Source of the DNA: an uncultured Verrucomicrobiota bacterium
GTDB lineage: Bacteria; Verrucomicrobiota; Verrucomicrobiia; Opitutales; Opitutaceae
Length of the DNA: 64,000 nt
Direction of reading: 5' to 3'
Assembly (NCBI GenBank): GCA_903898675.1
Contig: CAIUGM010000014.1
Coordinates: 124,001-188,000 of the forward strand
Part shown: positions 3,585 through 50,440 of the stretch, piece by piece
Layout: each line of letters starts with the position of its first letter
Position numbering within the stretch: position 1 is the stretch's first letter
The notes under the pieces: model-generated
What the model was told of the DNA's origin: nothing
Database searches by the model: none
Seen by the model: only the letters and a program-made list of their open reading frames with translations
Position numbers and translations under genes: made by a program

Positions 3585-5117
3585 ATGCACCGACTTTTCA
3601 AAACGGATTGTCATCCTGAGCAGCGCGAAGGATCCACGCGTTGGCACGTGGCGTCGGGCGCGCAGCACTGGATTCTTCGCGCTGTTCAGAATGACAGGAA
3701 CTATGCTCATGGGTTTATTTGCACACCCGGCCTTGTCCTCCTCCTCCTCACCGGCTGCGCCGTCGGTCCCGACTACAAGCAGCCCGACGTGGCCGCCACT
3801 TCCCCCGCCGCCTTCGCCGAGACCGGCCCGTGGAAGGTCGCCGCACCCAAGGACGACCTGCCCAAGGGCACCTGGTGGAAAATCTTCCATGATCCCGCGC
3901 TCGATGCGCTGGAGGCCTCGGCCGCCGCCGCCAGCCCGACACTGCAGGCCGCGATCGCGCGTCGCGACCAGGCCTTCGCCCTCGCCGGCCTGAGCCGCGC
4001 CGATTATTTCCCATCGCTCTCCCTCGATCCCTCGGCGTCACGTGCCCGCTATTCCGGCAACCGCCAGACGCAGGTCCCGGCGACGCGCGCGTCGTACACC
4101 GACAACAGTTTCAACCTGCCGCTCGACCTGAGCTACGAGCTCGACCTGTGGGGCCGCGTGCGCCGCGCCAACGAGAGCGCCCGGGCCCTCGCCGAGGCCA
4201 GCGCCGCCACGTACCAGACCGTCCTGCTCGGCGTGCAGGCGGATGTGGCGTCCGCGTATTTCACCCTGCGCTCGCTGGCCATGGAGCGCGAACTCGTCGG
4301 CCGCAGCATCCAGACGCGGCGCGACGCGCTCGATCTCGTGCAGAAACGTTTCGCCGGCGGCGCCAGCGCGCAGCTCGACGTGCTGCGCGCGCAGACGGAG
4401 CTCGCCACGGCGGAGAGCGACGCCCTCGCCATCGACCAGCGCCGCGCCGCCCTGCGCCACACCCTGGCCGTGCTTTGCGGACAGTCGCCCGAAAAATTCA
4501 AGGTGGACGACAGCGCCGCGCTGCCCGCCACCGTGCCCGCCCTGCCCGTCGGCCTGCCGTCGGAATTGCTCGAGCGCCGGCCCGATGTCGCCACCGCCGA
4601 GCGCACGCTCGCCGCGAGCAACGCCCAGATCGGCGTCGCGAAGGCCGCGTTCTTTCCCGCGATCAAGCTGATCGGTTCCGCCGGCTACAACAGTGACGAC
4701 CTCGGCACGCTGCTCAACTCCGACAGCCGCCAGTGGTCGCTCGGGCCGGCAATCTCGCTGCCGATTTTCCAGGGCGGACGCAACGTCGCCAACTACGACC
4801 GCGCCAAGGCCGCGTACGCCGAGTCGGTCGCCAGCTACCGCCTGCGCGTGCTGGTCGCCTTCCAGGAAGTCGAGGACGGCCTCAGCGGCCTGCGCTACCT
4901 CGACGGCCAGGCCGAGGCGCTCACGCGCGCCGTCACCGCCTCGCGCCAGGCCGCCAGCCTTTCGACCGTCCGCTACAAGGCCGGGCTGGTCAGCTACCTC
5001 GAGGTCGTCGACGCCGAGCGCACCGCGCTGCAGAACGAACGCACCGCGACCCAGCTCGCCACCCAGCGCCTCACCGCGAGCATTTTGCTCGTGAAGGCCC
5101 TCGGCGGCGGGTGGTGA
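3585..5117 (+). CDS. Outer-membrane efflux lipoprotein (NodT/OprM family) with a repeat inserted in its signal-peptide region
   Basis: Outer-membrane channel of the efflux system. The mature part is typical of NodT-type proteins: lipobox LLTGC followed by AVGPDYKQP, two OEP repeats, and a conserved C-terminal half containing ERRPDVATAE and LPIFQGGRN. The lipobox Cys is at about residue 58 when ATG 3585 is used, far later than the usual 15-25. The extra residues come from an 88-base inverted repeat (3609-3696) that is read through in frame. No ATG, GTG or TTG lies in frame between the repeat and the lipobox, so translation must begin before it (TTG 3576, ATG 3585) or in its loop (GTG 3648). 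Product assignment is firm; whether the signal peptide still works is open. Confidence 0.9.
   Translation: MHRLFKTDCHPEQREGSTRWHVASGAQHWILRAVQNDRNYAHGFICTPGLVLLLLTGCAVGPDYKQPDVAATSPAAFAETGPWKVAAPKDDLPKGTWWKIFHDPALDALEASAAAASPTLQAAIARRDQAFALAGLSRADYFPSLSLDPSASRARYSGNRQTQVPATRASYTDNSFNLPLDLSYELDLWGRVRRANESARALAEASAATYQTVLLGVQADVASAYFTLRSLAMERELVGRSIQTRRDALDLVQKRFAGGASAQLDVLRAQTELATAESDALAIDQRRAALRHTLAVLCGQSPEKFKVDDSAALPATVPALPVGLPSELLERRPDVATAERTLAASNAQIGVAKAAFFPAIKLIGSAGYNSDDLGTLLNSDSRQWSLGPAISLPIFQGGRNVANYDRAKAAYAESVASYRLRVLVAFQEVEDGLSGLRYLDGQAEALTRAVTASRQAASLSTVRYKAGLVSYLEVVDAERTALQNERTATQLATQRLTASILLVKALGGGW
3609..3696. repeat. 88-bp inverted-repeat element inside the efflux lipoprotein gene
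   Basis: The left arm starts TGTCATCCTGAGCAGCGCGA (3609) and continues to GGATCC; the right arm GGATTCTTCGCGCTGTTCAG ends in AATGACA at 3696. The arms pair over 27 bases with 3 mismatches. A related copy, also with both arms, is at 11717-11783, and a fragment (GCGCTCAGGATGACAG) is near 16886. Read as protein the left arm gives CHPEQREGST. This looks like a small palindromic non-autonomous element. Confidence 0.85.
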
Positions 5118-6809: not shown

Positions 6810-7523
6810 TTGCACTGCACAGAATCCCGGTCTTGCTTGGGCGCTGTGCTTACCTCCCTACCCCTCGTTCGCGCCCGCTGGTTGGGGCTGTGCCTGAGTC
6901 TTGTTCTGTTCGCGCCCGGCGCCCGGGCCAGGCCGTCTGACTGGGCCGCGGACATCGACCAGCTCACGCAGGCCGACGCCGCCCACCCACCCGCGCCGCA
7001 CGGGATCGTCTTTGTCGGCAGCTCTTCCATCCGCTTCTGGGCAACCCTGGAGTCGGACTTCCCCGGGCTGCCCGTCATCCGGCGCGGCTTCGGCGGATCC
7101 GAGCTGGCCGACAGCGTGTATTACCTCGACCGCCTCGTCATCGCCTACCAGCCGAAGACGGTCGTCCTCTATGCCGGGGAAAACGACCTCACCGCCGGCA
7201 AGACGCCCGAGACCGTGGCCGCGGACTTCCACGCCTTCTGCACGAAGCTGCACGCCGCACTTCCCGCCACGAGGATTTTCTACCTCGCCATGAAGCCGAG
7301 CCCCTCGCGCTGGGCGCTCCATGAGAAATTCCAGAAAGGCAACGCGCTGATCGCCGCCGAGTGCGCCGGCGACCCGCGCCTGATCTTTGTCGATGTCTAC
7401 ACCGCGTTGCTCGGCCCCGACGGACTGCCCCGCGCCGAGCTCTTCCGCCCGGACATGCTGCACATGAAGCACGAGGGCTACGAAATCTGGACCCGCCTGC
7501 TGACGCCACTGCTGCAGCAATAA
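6810..7523 (+). CDS. Exported SGNH/GDSL-family hydrolase
   Basis: Serine esterase/lipase-type hydrolase of the SGNH superfamily. Block I is FVGSSSIRFW with the nucleophilic Ser, block II GFGGSEL holds the oxyanion Gly, block III is AGENDLTAG with the oxyanion Asn, and block V is DMLHMKHEGY with the catalytic Asp and His. A hydrophobic stretch (LGLCLSLVLFAPGARA) is the signal peptide, but with ATG 6810 it is preceded by about 25 residues. TTG 6837 or GTG 6849 would give a more ordinary signal peptide, so the start is uncertain. Substrate unknown; acetyl-xylan-type esterases and lysophospholipases share this pattern. Confidence 0.85.
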   Translation: MHCTESRSCLGAVLTSLPLVRARWLGLCLSLVLFAPGARARPSDWAADIDQLTQADAAHPPAPHGIVFVGSSSIRFWATLESDFPGLPVIRRGFGGSELADSVYYLDRLVIAYQPKTVVLYAGENDLTAGKTPETVAADFHAFCTKLHAALPATRIFYLAMKPSPSRWALHEKFQKGNALIAAECAGDPRLIFVDVYTALLGPDGLPRAELFRPDMLHMKHEGYEIWTRLLTPLLQQ

Positions 7524-7531
7524 GCCCGGAA

Positions 7532-7943
7532 GGTTGCCCACGGAACACACGGATGACACGGAATGAAGAGTTTCGGAGGGCCACCACGAAATACACTAAA
7601 CACACGAAAGATAAGATCAGGATCTCTGTGGTTGACCAGCGGGGTCGTTATCCGTGTCGATACGTGTAATCCGCGGTCAAAACCGATTGGAGTGCTCTCT
7701 GCTAGAGAACTCATTCAGAGCCTTAGGGCGGCCGAATCACGCTTGGTCCGGTTGCCTGCGGCCCCGGTCTTGTCGCACCTGCGGCGCTCGGAACGCAAAC
7801 TCAAGCGCGGCTACATTTATTCTGAAACAGGAGCAAAGGTCCGAGTCAGATTTTCGTGTGTTTGGTGTATTTCGTGGTGGCATCCGCCGGTCAGGGTTTG
7901 CCCTTTCCTTCTTCCGTGTCTTCCGTGTGTTCCGTGGGCAACC
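7532..7943. repeat. Composite inverted-repeat element, copy 1 (CAC-unit arms around a REP)
   Basis: This 410-base stretch holds no gene of its own. The left arm (7532-7610) starts GGTTGCCCACGGAACACACG and ends ACACGAAAG; the right arm (about 7850-7943) starts TTTCGTGTGTTTGGTGTATT and ends TTCCGTGGGCAACC, the reverse complement of the left end. Between them lie a second CAC-unit fragment (CGTGTAATCCGCGGTCAAAA, 7664-7683) and a REP-type unit ending CTCAAGCGCGGCTAC (7814). The left arm matches that at 9290-9368 with only a few differences. Confidence 0.8.
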
Positions 7944-8554
7944 CTCCTTCTCCTTCCCCTGCCGAGCGGCTCCGCCAGCAGATCGTTTTCATTGCCGAGG
8001 TCGACAAGCTCAAGGAGGTCTTCCGCCAGACCGTCCTGACCCAGAGCCGCCGCGCCGAGAACAGCGCCGAGCACTCCTGGCACTTCGCCCTGATGATCGT
8101 CGTGCTCGCCGAGCACTCCAACCACCAGCCCCTCGACGTCCTGCGTATTCTCAAGATGGTCCTCATTCACGACCTCGTGGAGATCGACGCGGGCGACACC
8201 TTCGCCTACGACACCAAGAACATGGCCGACCAGCACGAGCGCGAGGCCATCGCGGCCACGCGCGTCTTCGGCCTACTGCCGCCCGACCAGGCCGCGGAGT
8301 TCCGCGCGCTGTGGGACGAGTTCGAGGCGCGCACCACCCCCGAGGCGAAGTTCGCCTGCGCCTGCGACCGCTTTCACCCAATGCTGCTCAACTGCCTCAC
8401 CGAAGGCCATGCTTGGCAGAAGCACGGGATCACCCAGGACCGCGTCCTCGCCCGCAACGCGCACGTCGCCGACGGCTCCCTCGCGATCTGGGAGTACGCC
8501 GTGCAGATGATCGACGAGGCCGTGGCGCAGGGGCACCTGGCGCCGAAGGGGTGA
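7934..8554 (+). CDS. HD-domain phosphohydrolase (YfbR-like, HD_3 family)
   Basis: Metal-dependent phosphohydrolase resembling 5'-deoxynucleotidases. The HD signature is visible as ENSAEHSWHFAL, then IHDLVEIDAGDTFAYD with the metal-binding His-Asp pair, and a later Asp in CACDRFHPML. The domain starts at about PAERLRQQIVF. The frame is open upstream to ATG 7856, but everything before residue about 10 is translated from the repeat at 7850-7943, so GTG 7934, at the very edge of that repeat, is taken as start. Either way the start codon comes from repeat DNA. A role in nucleotide-pool clean-up is the family expectation only. Confidence 0.85.
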   Translation: MGNPPSPSPAERLRQQIVFIAEVDKLKEVFRQTVLTQSRRAENSAEHSWHFALMIVVLAEHSNHQPLDVLRILKMVLIHDLVEIDAGDTFAYDTKNMADQHEREAIAATRVFGLLPPDQAAEFRALWDEFEARTTPEAKFACACDRFHPMLLNCLTEGHAWQKHGITQDRVLARNAHVADGSLAIWEYAVQMIDEAVAQGHLAPKG

Positions 8555-9273: not shown

Positions 9274-9289
9274 TGAGCAAGCGCGGAGG

Positions 9290-9544
9290 GGTTGCCCACG
9301 GAATACACGGATGACACGGAATGAAGAGTTTCGGAGGGTCACCACGAAATACACTGAATACACGAAAGGGAGTGATGGCGGTCCCATCGACCCGTAGCTG
9401 CCTTTGAGGCGAAGACGAAAAGGTGGCTCAGCGCGGCCGATCGGAACCACGCTTTCGTGTGCTTCGTGTATTTCGTGGTGACACCCGCCTGTCTGTGTTT
9501 GCCCGCATTCCCTTCCGTGTTTTCCGTGTCTTCCGTGGGCAACC
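9290..9544. repeat. Composite inverted-repeat element, copy 2 (CAC-unit arms around a REP)
   Basis: The left arm 9290-9368 (starting GGTTGCCCACGGAATACACG) and right arm about 9455-9544 (ending TTCCGTGGGCAACC) mirror each other. A degenerate REP-like stretch beginning GTAGCTGCCTTTGAG lies between them at 9393-9458. It has the same plan and near-identical left arm as 7532-7943, in the same orientation. Confidence 0.8.
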
Positions 9545-12732: not shown

Positions 12733-12808
12733 CGCCGCTTAGCGCAGCGCGTTCTCAGTTGTGTCATAAGCGGGCTTACCTAGCTTGTCCGGCAACCTAA
12801 CCACCTCC

Positions 12809-13849
12809 ATGTCCACTTCCATGCGTGCCATCATCAAGCCGACCGCCGGACCGGGCCTCATCATGACCGAGGCCCCGGTGCCCGTCCCCGGGGTCAACGA
12901 TGTGCTGATCAAGATCAAGAAAACCTCCATTTGCGGCACCGACGTGCACATCAACAAATGGGATTCCTGGGCCCAGCGCGTCATCAAGCCGCCGCTGATC
13001 ATCGGGCACGAGTATGTGGGGACGGTGGCCGACGTGGGCGCGGGCGTCACCGGTTTCACCCTGGGCCAGCTCGTCACGGGCGAAGGCCACATCGTCTGCG
13101 GCCATTGCCGCAACTGCCTCGCCGGCCGGCGTCACCTCTGCCCGAACACGATCGGGGTGGGCGTGAACCGCAACGGCGCGTTCGCCGACTACGTTTCCAT
13201 TCCCGCCAGCAACGTGTGGCGCGTGCCGGCCGGGATGTCGCTCGACGTCGTCTCCTGCTTCGACCCGCTCGGCAACGCGGTGCACACCGCGCTGTCGTTC
13301 GACCTCATCGGGGAGGACGTCCTCATCACCGGCGCGGGCCCGATCGGCTGCATGGCCATCGCCGTCGCGAAGCATGCCGGCGCGCGCAAGGTCGTCATCA
13401 CCGACCTGAACGAGGGCCGGCTGGAACTCGCGCGGAAGTTCGGCCCCACCCGGGCCGTGAACACCGCGACGGAAAACCTCACCGATGTCTGGCACAACGA
13501 ACTCGGCATGACCGAGGGCTTCGATGTCGGCCTGGAGATGTCCGGCAGCTCGATCGCGTTGAACCAGATGATCGACAACATGATCATGGGCGGCCGCATC
13601 GCCCTCCTCGGCACCCACTCGGCCAAGGCCGAGGTCGACTGGAACAAGATCGTTTTCAAGATGCTGCACCTGAAGGGCATTTACGGCCGGGAAATGTTCG
13701 AGACCTGGTACAAGATGACCGCGCTCGTCCAGGGCGGGCTCGATATCACACCCGTGATCACGCACCGTTTTCCCGTGGAGAATTTCCAGGAAGGCTTCGA
13801 CCTGATGGGCGCCGGCAAGAGCGGCAAGATCGTGCTGAACTGGGAGTGA
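12809..13849 (+). CDS. tdh: L-threonine 3-dehydrogenase
   Basis: NAD-dependent, zinc-containing medium-chain dehydrogenase that oxidises L-threonine to 2-amino-3-ketobutyrate. The catalytic zinc ligands are in [12 protein letters not shown] and GHEYVG, the structural-zinc Cys cluster is [15 protein letters not shown], and the NAD loop is [25 protein letters not shown] at the C-terminus is typical. Of TTG 12785, ATG 12809 and ATG 12821, 12809 is taken; the conserved part begins MRAIIKP at 12821. Its usual partner kbl follows, separated here by the GxxExxY element. Confidence 0.95.
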
Positions 13850-13853
13850 TTTT

Positions 13854-13884
13854 TAGCCACGGATCGCACGGATGAGCACGGATG
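13854..13884 (+). repeat. Left terminal inverted repeat of the GxxExxY element
   Basis: Contains three CACGGAT heptamers starting at 13858, 13867 and 13877, that is, spaced 9 and 10 bases. It supplies the ATG used by the gene. Confidence 0.85.
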
Positions 13885-14249
13885 AATTAATCCATAAGGA
13901 ACTGAGTGAATCCATCATTGGGTGCGCTATGACGGTTCATAACGGACTAAAACCAGGCCTGCGCGAGAAAACCTACGAACGGGCACTAGTACACGAGCTC
14001 ACCAAACGAGGAATTAAGTGTGATCAGCAGAAGCAATTCGACGTGGTCTATGATGGTAAAGTGATCGACCAGATGATTCCTGATCTGATTGTTGCAGGTT
14101 TGGTCATTGTCGATGCAAAGTGTGTAACCACTTTTGACGACACGCACCTAGCCCAGGTCATCGGTTATCTTTCTATCACTGGGTTACGCCTGGGTCTGCT
14201 CATTAATTCCAAGCATTCCCGCCTGCAATGGAAGCGTCTCGTTCTATAA
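13872..14249 (+). CDS. GxxExxY protein, PD-(D/E)XK nuclease-like (PDDEXK_3 type)
   Basis: A 125-residue protein of the GxxExxY family, whose signature is seen as GLREKTY (residues 29-35). Following it are YERALVHELTKRGI, the QQKQF strand and IPDLIVAGLVIVDAK, which fits the core of PD-(D/E)XK nucleases: Asp71, then Asp81-x-Lys83 where most relatives have Glu-x-Lys. The length is normal and there is no frameshift, so the gene looks intact. Codon use is much less GC-rich than in tdh and kbl. The start ATG is inside the left terminal repeat. The family's biological role is not established; nuclease activity is inferred from the motif. Confidence 0.85.
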   Translation: MSTDELIHKELSESIIGCAMTVHNGLKPGLREKTYERALVHELTKRGIKCDQQKQFDVVYDGKVIDQMIPDLIVAGLVIVDAKCVTTFDDTHLAQVIGYLSITGLRLGLLINSKHSRLQWKRLVL

Positions 14250-14255
14250 TTCCAC

Positions 14256-14286
14256 CATCCGTGCTCATCAGTGCCATCAGTGGCTA
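14256..14286 (-). repeat. Right terminal inverted repeat of the GxxExxY element
   Basis: CATCCGTGCTCATCAGTGCC to AGTGGCTA; its reverse complement matches the left repeat at 28 of 31 positions. It lies 7 bases after the gene's stop codon and 10 bases before the kbl ATG. Confidence 0.85.
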
Positions 14287-14296
14287 AATATCTTCC

Positions 14297-15487
14297 ATGA
14301 ATTCAGCCTATTCCGATCACTTAAAGAACACCCTCTCTGAGATCGAGGCCGCTGGCCTCTTCAAGCGCGAACGCGTCATCACCACCCACCAGACCGCGCA
14401 CATTGCCGTGACGTCGGGGCAAAAGGTGCTCAACTTCTGCGCCAACAATTACCTCGGGCTCGCGGACCATCCCGAGCTCATCGCCGCGGCCAAGGAGTCG
14501 CTCGACCGCTGGGGCTACGGACTCGCGTCGGTCCGCTTCATCTGCGGCACGCAGGAGATCCACAAGAACCTCGAGGCCGCCATTGCCAGGTTTCTTGGCA
14601 CCGAGGACACCATCCTGTATTCCTCCTGCTTCGACGCCAACGGCGGCCTGTTCGAAACCCTGCTCGGGCCGGAGGACGCGGTCATTTCGGACGAACTGAA
14701 CCACGCCTCCATCATCGACGGCATCCGGCTCTGCAAGGCCCAGCGCTACCGCTACAAAAACAACAACCTCGAGGATCTCGAGGCGAAGCTGAAGGAAGCC
14801 GACGCCGCCAAGGCGCGGTTCAAGCTCATCGCCACGGACGGCGTGTTTTCCATGGATGGCTACATTGCGAACCTCCAGGGGGTTTGCGACCTCGCCGACC
14901 AGTACGGCGCGCTGGTCATGGTGGACGACAGCCACTCGGTCGGTTTCATGGGCCGGACCGGCCGCGGCACGCATGAGCACTGCGGCGTGATGGGTCGCAT
15001 CGATGTCTTCACCGGCACGCTCGGCAAGGCCCTCGGCGGCGCCAGCGGCGGCTACACCAGCGGCCGCAAGGAAATCATCGACCTGCTGCGGCAGCGTTCC
15101 CGGCCGTATCTTTTTTCCAACACCATTGCCCCGAGCATCGCCGCTGCGTCGATCAAGTGTTTGGAAATGCTCAGTGCCTCCACGGCCCTACGCGACAAGC
15201 TTGAGGCCAACACCAAATTCTTCCGCGAGGGTCTCACGCAGGCCGGCCTCACGCTGCGGCCCGGCAACCATCCGATCGTGCCGGTGATGCTCGGTGACGC
15301 CGCCCTCTCCCAGAAGGTCGCGGCGCGCATGCTGGAGAAGGGCGTCTACGTGGTCGGGTTTTTCTACCCGGTGGTGCCGCAGGGCCAGGCCCGGATTCGC
15401 ACGCAGGTGTCCGCGGCTCACAGCCGCGAGGACCTCGCGTTTGCCATCAGGGCCTTTGCCGAGGTGAAACAGGAGTTTGGCTTGTAG
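14297..15487 (+). CDS. kbl: Glycine C-acetyltransferase (2-amino-3-ketobutyrate CoA ligase)
   Basis: PLP enzyme that cleaves 2-amino-3-ketobutyrate with CoA to glycine and acetyl-CoA, the second step of threonine breakdown after Tdh. 396 residues, full length. The PLP lysine is in [45 protein letters not shown] and [18 protein letters not shown] are class-II aminotransferase-fold landmarks. Being cut off from tdh by an inserted element raises the question of whether the two are still co-transcribed. The stop codon lies in the left arm of the hairpin repeat at 15484-15556. Confidence 0.95.
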
Positions 15488-48657: not shown

Positions 48658-48660
48658 GTG

Positions 48661-48792
48661 GATTTTCGATTCGGGATTTTCGATTGATGACCCAATCTCT
48701 GAACCCCGGACCAGAGCCGTCGGATAACCGATCATTGCCGGCCGCAGAGGCTGCCCTGAAATCGAAAGTCGAGAATCCAAAATCGAAAATCC
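48661..48792. repeat. GATTTTCGATT inverted repeat spanning the lspA start
   Basis: The left arm GATTTTCGATTCGGGATTTT to CGATTGA begins 4 bases after the DksA-like stop; the right arm AATCGAAAGTCGAGAATCCA to AAATCGAAAATCC (to 48792) is inside the annotated lspA frame and is translated KSKVENPKSKIP. The lspA ATG (48687) is at the end of the left arm. Confidence 0.75.
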
Positions 48793-50259: not shown

Positions 50260-50427
50260 TTAACCACGGATTTCACGGATGAGCACGGATACAGATTTTT
50301 AAACCACTAATGGCCACTAAGGACACACTAATGATTAGTGAGGTATTAGTGTGGATTAGTGGTTAACCAGTCTGGTCCGTTAGAATCGGGCGGATTTATT
50401 CGTGTTAATCCGTGATATCCGTGGTCA
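50260..50427. repeat. Gene-less CAC-unit element with a nested second inverted repeat
   Basis: Outer left arm TTAACCACGGATTTCACGGA to GAGCACGGATAC; outer right arm ATTCGTGTTAATCCGTGATA to TCCGTGGTCA. Nested inside is AACCACTAATGGCCACTAAG to ACACACTAATG against ATTAGTGTGGATTAGTGGTT. The outer unit is CACGGAT, as in the ends of the GxxExxY element (13854-14286); the inner unit is CACTAAT. No open frame of useful length is inside. Confidence 0.8.
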
Positions 50428-50440
50428 AAAAGTCCGAAAC

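Follow-up and report, generated by a model that had tools for sequence, protein, structure and literature searches.

A hairpin with heptamer arms and a GxxExxY nuclease-like gene looks like a widespread, little-described selfish element

The junction between tdh and kbl in an uncultured bacterium of the Opitutaceae holds a small gene enclosed by two inverted arms, each built of three tandem heptamers. This gene-bearing hairpin looks like one case of a widespread, little-described selfish element, whose copies may have moved. Arms of the same design enclose genes of the same family in many phyla, enclose genes of an unrelated four-helix-bundle family as well, and recur in the same genome with no gene between them. 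Here, "the window" means the whole stretch of DNA that was analysed, 64 kb in length. The features needed below are these.

12785..13849, + strand: tdh (L-threonine 3-dehydrogenase), flanking host gene; the element begins at its stop codon.
13848..13884, + strand: left arm, three tandem CACGGAT-type heptamers behind TTTTTAGC; holds the start codon; 33 of its 37 positions pair with the right arm.
13872..14249, + strand: GxxExxY gene, 125 aa, with a Cas4/RecB-like PD-(D/E)XK nuclease fold; E32, D71, D81-x-K83, H92, Q95 and Y99 are present.
14256..14292, - strand: right arm, an inverted copy of the left arm (33/37 match).
14297..15487, + strand: kbl (glycine C-acetyltransferase), flanking host gene; relatives have nothing, or other hairpins, between tdh and kbl.
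50260..50428, no strand assigned: gene-less CACGGAT hairpin, arms 50260-50291 and 50397-50428 (genome sites C14:174274/174397).

A sequence-only reading of this DNA had described 31-base inverted repeats agreeing at 28 positions, a start codon inside the left repeat, and nothing else inside but the gene. All of this was confirmed. The core arms (13854-13884 and 14256-14286) are identical at 28 of 31 positions, and the extended arms (13848-13884 and 14256-14292) at 33 of 37; the ATG at 13872 lies inside the left arm; and the ORF list has a single frame of at least 60 aa between the arms, that of the 125-aa GxxExxY protein. Six bases separate the end of its stop codon (14249) from the first base of the right arm (14256). 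Because the ATG lies within the left arm, the repeat itself encodes the first residues of the protein (MSTDE). Among 30 loci of the window subfamily, seven N-termini read MSTDE, MATDE, MDTDK, MHTDK, MNTDK (twice) or MSTDR.

The nature of the repeat had to be revised. The inverted arms stand, but each consists of three tandem CACGGAT-type heptamers with spacers of 2-3 nt rather than of one palindrome-type repeat. Nor is the sequence unique, as the window genome holds 116 sites of CACGGATGRRCACGGATR when no more than 3 mismatches are allowed, and the reversed control gives 3. The two arms of the window element align with a score of 27, and the 440 shifted-window controls have their 99% quantile at 14.3; shifted windows seldom score so high, which rules out the arms as chance or artefact. 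Folded as one DNA strand, the element gives z = -3.65. No known RNA family was found in the 64-kb window at the gathering threshold.

The only matches of the enclosed protein at E<=1 are PF13366 (PDDEXK_3) in Pfam, with 121.4 bits against a curated cut-off of 22, and TIGR04256 (GxxExxY) in NCBIfam, with 130.3 bits against a curated cut-off of 35. At the same E<=1 in these two libraries, the protein contains no Y1 (HUH) tyrosine transposase domain and the element no known transposase. The residues of the PD-(D/E)XK-like core, earlier given as Asp71 and Asp81-x-Lys83, are as stated. In 17 diverse relatives G29, E32, D71, K83, H92 and Y99 are invariant, and Y35, (D/E)81 and Q95 nearly so. The motif E..D..(D/E)xK..Q..Y is complete in 72 of 76 proteins of the wide set and 65 of 75 of the family set, counts that came from two slightly different searches, with three wide genes containing a stop set aside. 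Single stop codons interrupt otherwise full-length GxxExxY genes at L268, L290, L297, L400 and L404; gene-bearing copies therefore appear to decay.

The AlphaFold2 model of the window protein has a pLDDT of 96.5. Its nearest fold is SSO0001 (4ic1), which we take to be a Cas4 (Foldseek E 3e-4; Z 10.1 over 99 residues at 3.6 A). Next come lambda-exonuclease types, another Cas4, and then the Holliday-junction resolvase Hjc at Z 7.7, in a range (about 8 or lower) that is frequent for unrelated folds; a common fold, of course, proves no function. No sequence relative of GxxExxY was found in the PDB at E<=1, and a sequence search with a four-helix protein matched 2gsc and 2rld. The anti-phage defence models of PADLOC-DB gave no match to the window protein at E<=0.01, and a reading as a defence system was set aside on that account, although absence from a 2023 library weighs little.

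The architecture was also sought elsewhere. Arms were scored by local alignment of 160-nt flanks and called at a score of at least 13, with windows shifted by 600-1200 nt at the same loci (up to 1500 nt in the wide set) as controls. Such arms flank 65 of 74 GxxExxY loci in the family set (shifted control 9/440), 60 of 72 four-helix-bundle (PF05635) loci in the family (5/424), and 61 of 79 GxxExxY loci in the wide set of named genomes and one viral contig (7/562), counts that are slightly too high, since by eye the arms of four of the 61 (L233, L234, L239, L292) and two of the 65 (L050, L152) align in the opposite sense, as from neighbouring hairpins; at least two wide loci (L281, L293) also duplicate arms of family loci (L047, L049). 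Most loci are the highest-scoring hits, with one or a few from each genome and all six GxxExxY and all four PF05635 hits from the window genome. To these were added 40 GxxExxY and 40 four-helix loci hand-picked among the matches listed; loci with short flanks were excluded (one family GxxExxY, one four-helix, two wide). When the left flank of one gene was aligned with the right flank of another (2000 draws), the median was 8.5, the 95% quantile 17 and the 99% quantile 29.5, a heavy tail that arises because many genes have heptamer classes in common.

The earlier expectation that most GxxExxY genes would be flanked in this way is borne out, only 9 of 74 family and 18 of 79 wide loci scoring below 13, and the shifted windows speak against the same repeats being equally frequent elsewhere. 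The window genome gave six GxxExxY genes; every one has inverted arms (scores 21-27), and the heptamer class is different in each: CACGGAT, CACGAAG, CGCAAAG/CGCCAAG, CACGGAA, CACGAAAAA-like and GCGGAAG-like. Of 30 window-subfamily loci, 24 score at least 13 and 28 have, by eye, units ending in GAT on both sides (CACGGAT, CGCGGAT, CACAGAT and the like); the exceptions by eye are L386, with no GAT units, and L402, aligned in the opposite sense.

By record title, the taxa with armed loci include Verrucomicrobia, Planctomycetes, Chloroflexi, Cyanobacteria, Acidobacteria, Bacteroidetes, Ignavibacteria, Parachlamydiales, and Alpha-, Beta- and Gammaproteobacteria. One of two archaeal loci is armed (Methanosarcinales, 16.5; Methanothrix, 7.0), and loci without arms occur in Chlorobiaceae (10.0) and Neomarinimicrobiota (7.0). 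The heptamer type CRCRRAG is common to most wide armed loci. Thus, the heptamer-armed gene element is confirmed as a class that spans many phyla, not a single case. Eight plasmid records match GxxExxY, and phage records gave no tblastn match at 1e-5. One contig from a viral collection (L305) carries a GxxExxY gene with heptamer arms scoring 23.5.

If protein and repeat belong together, the repeat should change with the protein, a check that the sequence-only reading had proposed. It does. Between genera, protein similarity and arm similarity correlate with a Spearman coefficient of 0.444 for GxxExxY (62 loci, 1812 pairs) and 0.294 for the four-helix family (60 loci, 1719 pairs), each with p<=5e-4 (0/2000 permutations); these counts, like the mismatch counts given below, omit L050, L058 and L152, whose arms are longer than 45 nt or come from neighbouring hairpins. 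The mean arm score in the closest protein bin is 11.4 for GxxExxY and 12.2 for the four-helix family, falling to about 6 and about 5 for distant pairs. Pairs within one genome average 6.9 (GxxExxY, 21 pairs) and 4.75 (four-helix, 8 pairs). For example, four-helix proteins of the EKLxVWQKS type go with GTTGAGA, those of the HALTLEIYRLTK type with TAAGCNN and those of the AHAFTL type with AGTAGCG, while GxxExxY proteins of the GACFEVYKEKGCG type go with CACGAAA.

A related question is whether the two arms of one element resemble each other more than they resemble arms of other elements in the same set of loci. Between gatA and gatB (15 loci) they do, with 19.8 for own arms against 14.2 across loci (0/5000 permutations). 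In a set from an ABC operon (5 loci) the values are 24.1 and 13.5 (42/5000, the best rank possible with five loci). In the remaining sets, of 3-6 loci each, coherence was absent in S3 (18.8 vs 18.8) and S4 (27.2 vs 26.9), reversed in S5 (12.0 vs 18.4), and not significant in S6 (25.3 vs 13.0), S7 (25.7 vs 22.1) and S8 (18.5 vs 14.8). Arm coherence is therefore established in one large set, gatA-gatB, and suggested elsewhere.

The repeats also occur without the gene. Among 100 listed CACGGAT sites of the window genome, neighbouring pairs no more than 1 kb apart comprise 28 convergent, 1 divergent and 1 same-strand pair. Of the convergent pairs, 27 are gene-less, with 20-145 nt between sites, too little for a gene of GxxExxY size; in the remaining pair the sites are 371 nt apart and the window gene lies between them. 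One gene with many hairpins is a REPIN-like picture. In the relative G071, a blind scan of 400 kb gave 63 inverted repeats, of which 7 are heptamer-like, all of them gene-less (20-127 nt between).

Several other hairpins lie in the window. The gene-less CACGGAT hairpin at 50260-50428 carries a CACTAAT-class hairpin (50292-50332 / 50334-50374) that occupies exactly its loop, so that two classes are nested. Two composite hairpins 1.7 kb apart (7522-7947 and 9279-9544) combine CACGGAA outer with CACGAAA inner arms; their left parts are identical at 83 of 89 positions and their right parts at 80 of 90, and their insides differ. A gene-less hairpin at 48660-48792 has TTTTCGATT-type arms that resemble those of a four-helix gene (L077) in the same genome. 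The hairpin at 3609-3696 and one in G071 (L215, G071:C1:209122-209209) are alike (TGTCATYCTGAGC...GAAGRATCCA) and belong to another repeat class. REP repeats are GTAG-type palindromes, and the 400 kb of G071 hold many palindromic repeats starting with TGTAGG (TGTAGGAGCC..., TGTAGGGCGG...; L205-L224), which we take to be classical GTAG-type REPs. Such repeats are common in that stretch, and are a class apart from the heptamer arms.

The density of the three-heptamer CACGGAT pattern was counted in 120 genomes of the family. The median per Mb is 0.0 in genomes without a GxxExxY hit (n=18, maximum 1.22), 2.5 in those with other GxxExxY subfamilies (n=69) and 7.75 in those with the window subfamily (n=33), the last being defined by a best hit of at least 120 bits, a cut chosen after the counts were seen. 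The one-sided p is 2.5e-6 for other subfamilies against none and 3.5e-4 for the window subfamily against other subfamilies. Genomes at least 90% complete (16, 52 and 28) gave 2e-5 and 9e-4, and shuffling of labels within genera gave 0.007 (8 informative genera, 27 genomes) and 0.010 (17 genera, 56 genomes). The AGTAGCG pattern of a four-helix class shows no clean counterpart of this link, two of eight GxxExxY genomes without PF05635 hits being rich in it (G004, G044). Both repeat classes are near zero in five genomes that have four-helix genes but lack GxxExxY, and a double dissociation of the two classes is not clean. The two densities also correlate with each other (rho 0.43); part of the link between density and gene may therefore reflect general element load. 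Cognate specificity of repeat density is supported for the window class, and the AGTAGCG four-helix class is without such support.

Comparison of junctions among relatives shows where elements sit. In the genus, kbl was found in 18 of 21 genomes, with tdh adjacent in 16. Two of these 16 spacers hold GxxExxY with CACGGAT arms, three hold gene-less CACAGAG-type hairpins, two CACTAAT hairpins and three unrelated GC-rich hairpins; four spacers of 61-64 nt have no hairpin, one is 5 nt long and one is partial. For gatA-gatB, 80 of 82 loci were resolved: 31 spacers are shorter than 60 nt (17 of them 0 nt), 20 hold GxxExxY, 3 a four-helix gene, 17 a gene-less hairpin and 9 something else. This is not a random sample, as it joins 70 loci from a GatB search (30 best, 40 chosen, known carriers skipped) with 12 known carriers; the 68 resolved among the 70 divide into 10 GxxExxY, 1 four-helix, 17 gene-less, 9 other and 31 short. 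Identical occupancy in all relatives, the outcome that the sequence-only reading would have counted against itself, is thus not seen: both junctions are found empty, gene-bearing or with hairpins of other classes. By eye, CRCRGAG arrays are present in 18 of 20 GxxExxY copies at gatA-gatB and in 0 of the 17 gene-less hairpins there, which are therefore not simply remnants of GxxExxY copies.

All 23 gene-bearing elements at gatA-gatB point in the operon direction, among them four-helix (L178, L180, L364) and GxxExxY (L052, L125, L148) elements. Further occupied junctions are gyrB-gyrA, pheS-pheT, the B-A pair of gyrase/topoisomerase IV, and pyrB-pyrC. With neighbours taken as the longest ORF, a crude pick rather than annotation, the upstream gene runs in the same direction in 54 of 65 GxxExxY and 54 of 60 four-helix elements, both neighbours do so in 42 of 65 and 31 of 60, and the element starts no more than 10 nt from the upstream stop in 64 of 108. 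Some elements keep the same junction across genera, with flanks about 65-88% alike; any movement is therefore rare or old. No insertion between near-identical strains was caught, and no target-site duplication could be defined in the tdh-kbl and gatA-gatB spacers, which have diverged too far or have too few bases.

Four known systems come closest. RAYT/REPIN systems, as the consulted part of PMC3116915 describes them, link a repeat group to an enzyme and place inverted repeat doublets across the genome. The likeness lies in these two points, the window genome having 27 gene-less convergent doublets among its 100 listed sites, and in a chromosomal nuclease-type gene near hairpin repeat copies. 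However, the window enzyme is a PD-(D/E)XK protein, whereas RAYT is a tyrosine (Y1) transposase, and the window arms are tandem heptamers 8-10 nt apart that enclose the gene within a few bases. With no Y1 domain inside, the element is not a RAYT; with no known transposase inside (only PF13366 / TIGR04256), a reading as a MITE of a known insertion sequence was set aside as well.

The second is the intervening sequence of 23S rRNA. According to the consulted part of PMC4990558, that of Coxiella measures 428 nt, has a terminal stem of 28 bp and contains an S23 ORF, and the origin of such sequences is still called unclear. The plan is similar here: about 430-450 nt, with a single small ORF enclosed by inverted repeats of about 28 nt at the two ends. 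Four-helix elements carry PF05635, which, going by the Pfam name 23S_rRNA_IVP, we take to be the family of S23. By size and plan, the Coxiella intervening sequence may be a four-helix element in a special place. The window element itself is not one, since place and protein differ: its ORF is PD-(D/E)XK, not an S23 four-helix bundle, and it lies between the protein genes tdh and kbl, not in rRNA. The part of PMC4990558 consulted makes no mention of heptamer arrays, gene-less copies or protein-repeat covariation for these sequences.

Nucleases of the Cas4, lambda-exonuclease and RecB type share with the window protein the fold and the motif order D, (D/E)-x-K, QxxxY that marks RecB and Cas4. The window protein differs as a single domain of 125 aa with a conserved GxxExxY start, whereas Cas4 has an iron-sulphur part. 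Finally, the P6b of the nostocalean trnL intron, in the consulted part of PMC4476775, has stem-loops of seven-nucleotide motifs, in two classes and with repeated replacement, but these hairpins lie within an intron and no gene is reported with them. In the open-licence PMC literature no prior description was found, though one may exist elsewhere; in that literature GxxExxY occurs in two papers, as a gene or domain label only, and PDDEXK_3 and six repeat strings do not occur. The kind of element appears to be new because each known mobile or intervening kind considered fails in a defining feature and because the searches of that literature gave no description.

The best-supported reading, to which we give somewhat better than even chances, is a two-part selfish hairpin element, similar to RAYT/REPIN with another enzyme and another repeat. 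The gene-bearing form would measure about 450 nt and consist of one small gene with an arm of some three tandem heptamers on either side, the two arms being inverted to each other. The gene-less form would be a shorter hairpin with the same arms, roughly 80-210 nt as estimated from site spacing, and far more numerous. The GxxExxY protein would most likely recognise the heptamer array of its own class, or else a hairpin or cruciform formed by that array, nick or process it and so help copies to spread or persist in trans, much as RAYTs may do for REPINs. Survivors would be found mainly at gene junctions, often directly behind a stop codon and inside operons, where they do little harm. Four-helix elements have the same layout without a nuclease, and nuclease activity is therefore not common to all such elements; their protein might work with a host nuclease, or array binding, not cutting, might be the common step. 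The earlier suggestion of a nuclease that recognises, spreads or maintains the repeat class is supported in part, by covariation and the density link, while binding or cutting of the repeats by the protein, and movement, are inferred. Its parallel with RAYT holds for a gene plus inverted doublets, with another fold and repeat, but the picture is wider, as a non-nuclease four-helix family has the same architecture.

Hairpins might instead be spread by another enzyme (a RAYT-type Y1 transposase), by replication slippage or by recombination, small genes simply riding in safe loops. Gene-less hairpins do outnumber gene-bearing ones, two unrelated gene families have the layout in common, hairpins are nested in the loops of hairpins, and the window genome has one Y1_Tnp gene. 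Against this, heptamer class tracks protein subfamily across genera and density tracks the cognate subfamily, and we consider this reading unlikely. The lone Y1 gene scores 25 bits and has no CACGGAT site closer than about 2.7 kb (6.3 kb examined); the genome's own RAYT was rejected as the mover, although it might act in trans.

If the elements were intervening sequences at operon junctions, the transcript would fold through the arms, RNase III would cut the stem, the host would tolerate the result as it does in 23S rRNA, and the protein would be a helper or relic. The Coxiella sequence is indeed close in size and plan to four-helix elements (median 440 nt), and orientation fits, with 108 of 125 upstream genes in the same direction by the crude ORF pick and 23 of 23 at gatA-gatB. 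Orientation may, however, only reflect the insertions that a host survives. Selection for sense-RNA pairing should, moreover, favour G-U over A-C mismatches in the arms, and the counts are 35 vs 77 (GxxExxY), 49 vs 81 (four-helix), 4 vs 14 (gene-less, gatA-gatB) and 55 vs 57 (wide set; 53 loci scoring at least 13 with arms under 50 nt). This argues mildly for DNA as the relevant level; we consider the RNA reading quite unlikely. The family arms (L009-L204) show an A-C bias that the wide set lacks. Homing, in which the protein cuts empty conserved junctions, repair copies the element in and the arms insulate the neighbours, would suit the PD-(D/E)XK fold with its kept motif, the several sites at conserved gene pairs, and the GxxExxY occupancy of gatA-gatB (20 of 80 resolved genomes, not a random sample). 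Yet gatA-gatB also carries four-helix genes and gene-less hairpins of other classes, arms at different junctions have heptamers in common, and homing has no need of covarying arms; we regard it as very improbable.

The two-part selfish hairpin can be placed in a larger frame, for which we put the chances just short of even. On this view, prokaryotes of many phyla would harbour a separate superfamily of selfish elements, the heptamer-armed hairpins. At least two small proteins with no relation to each other, a Cas4-like nuclease and the four-helix bundle S23, would each co-evolve with heptamer arrays of their own and act in trans to drive the gene-less hairpins, and the classical intervening sequences of 23S rRNA would be the few copies that ended up there. 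If true, this would place GxxExxY and the S23 four-helix bundle, two common families whose role is unknown, in a biological setting, and would account for some of the short hairpins with heptamers that environmental genomes contain. It would offer a possible origin for the 23S rRNA intervening sequences, and a second enzyme fold for the keeping of repeats in the RAYT/REPIN style. The pairs of protein and heptamer, in turn, are a ready-made specificity series for biochemistry.
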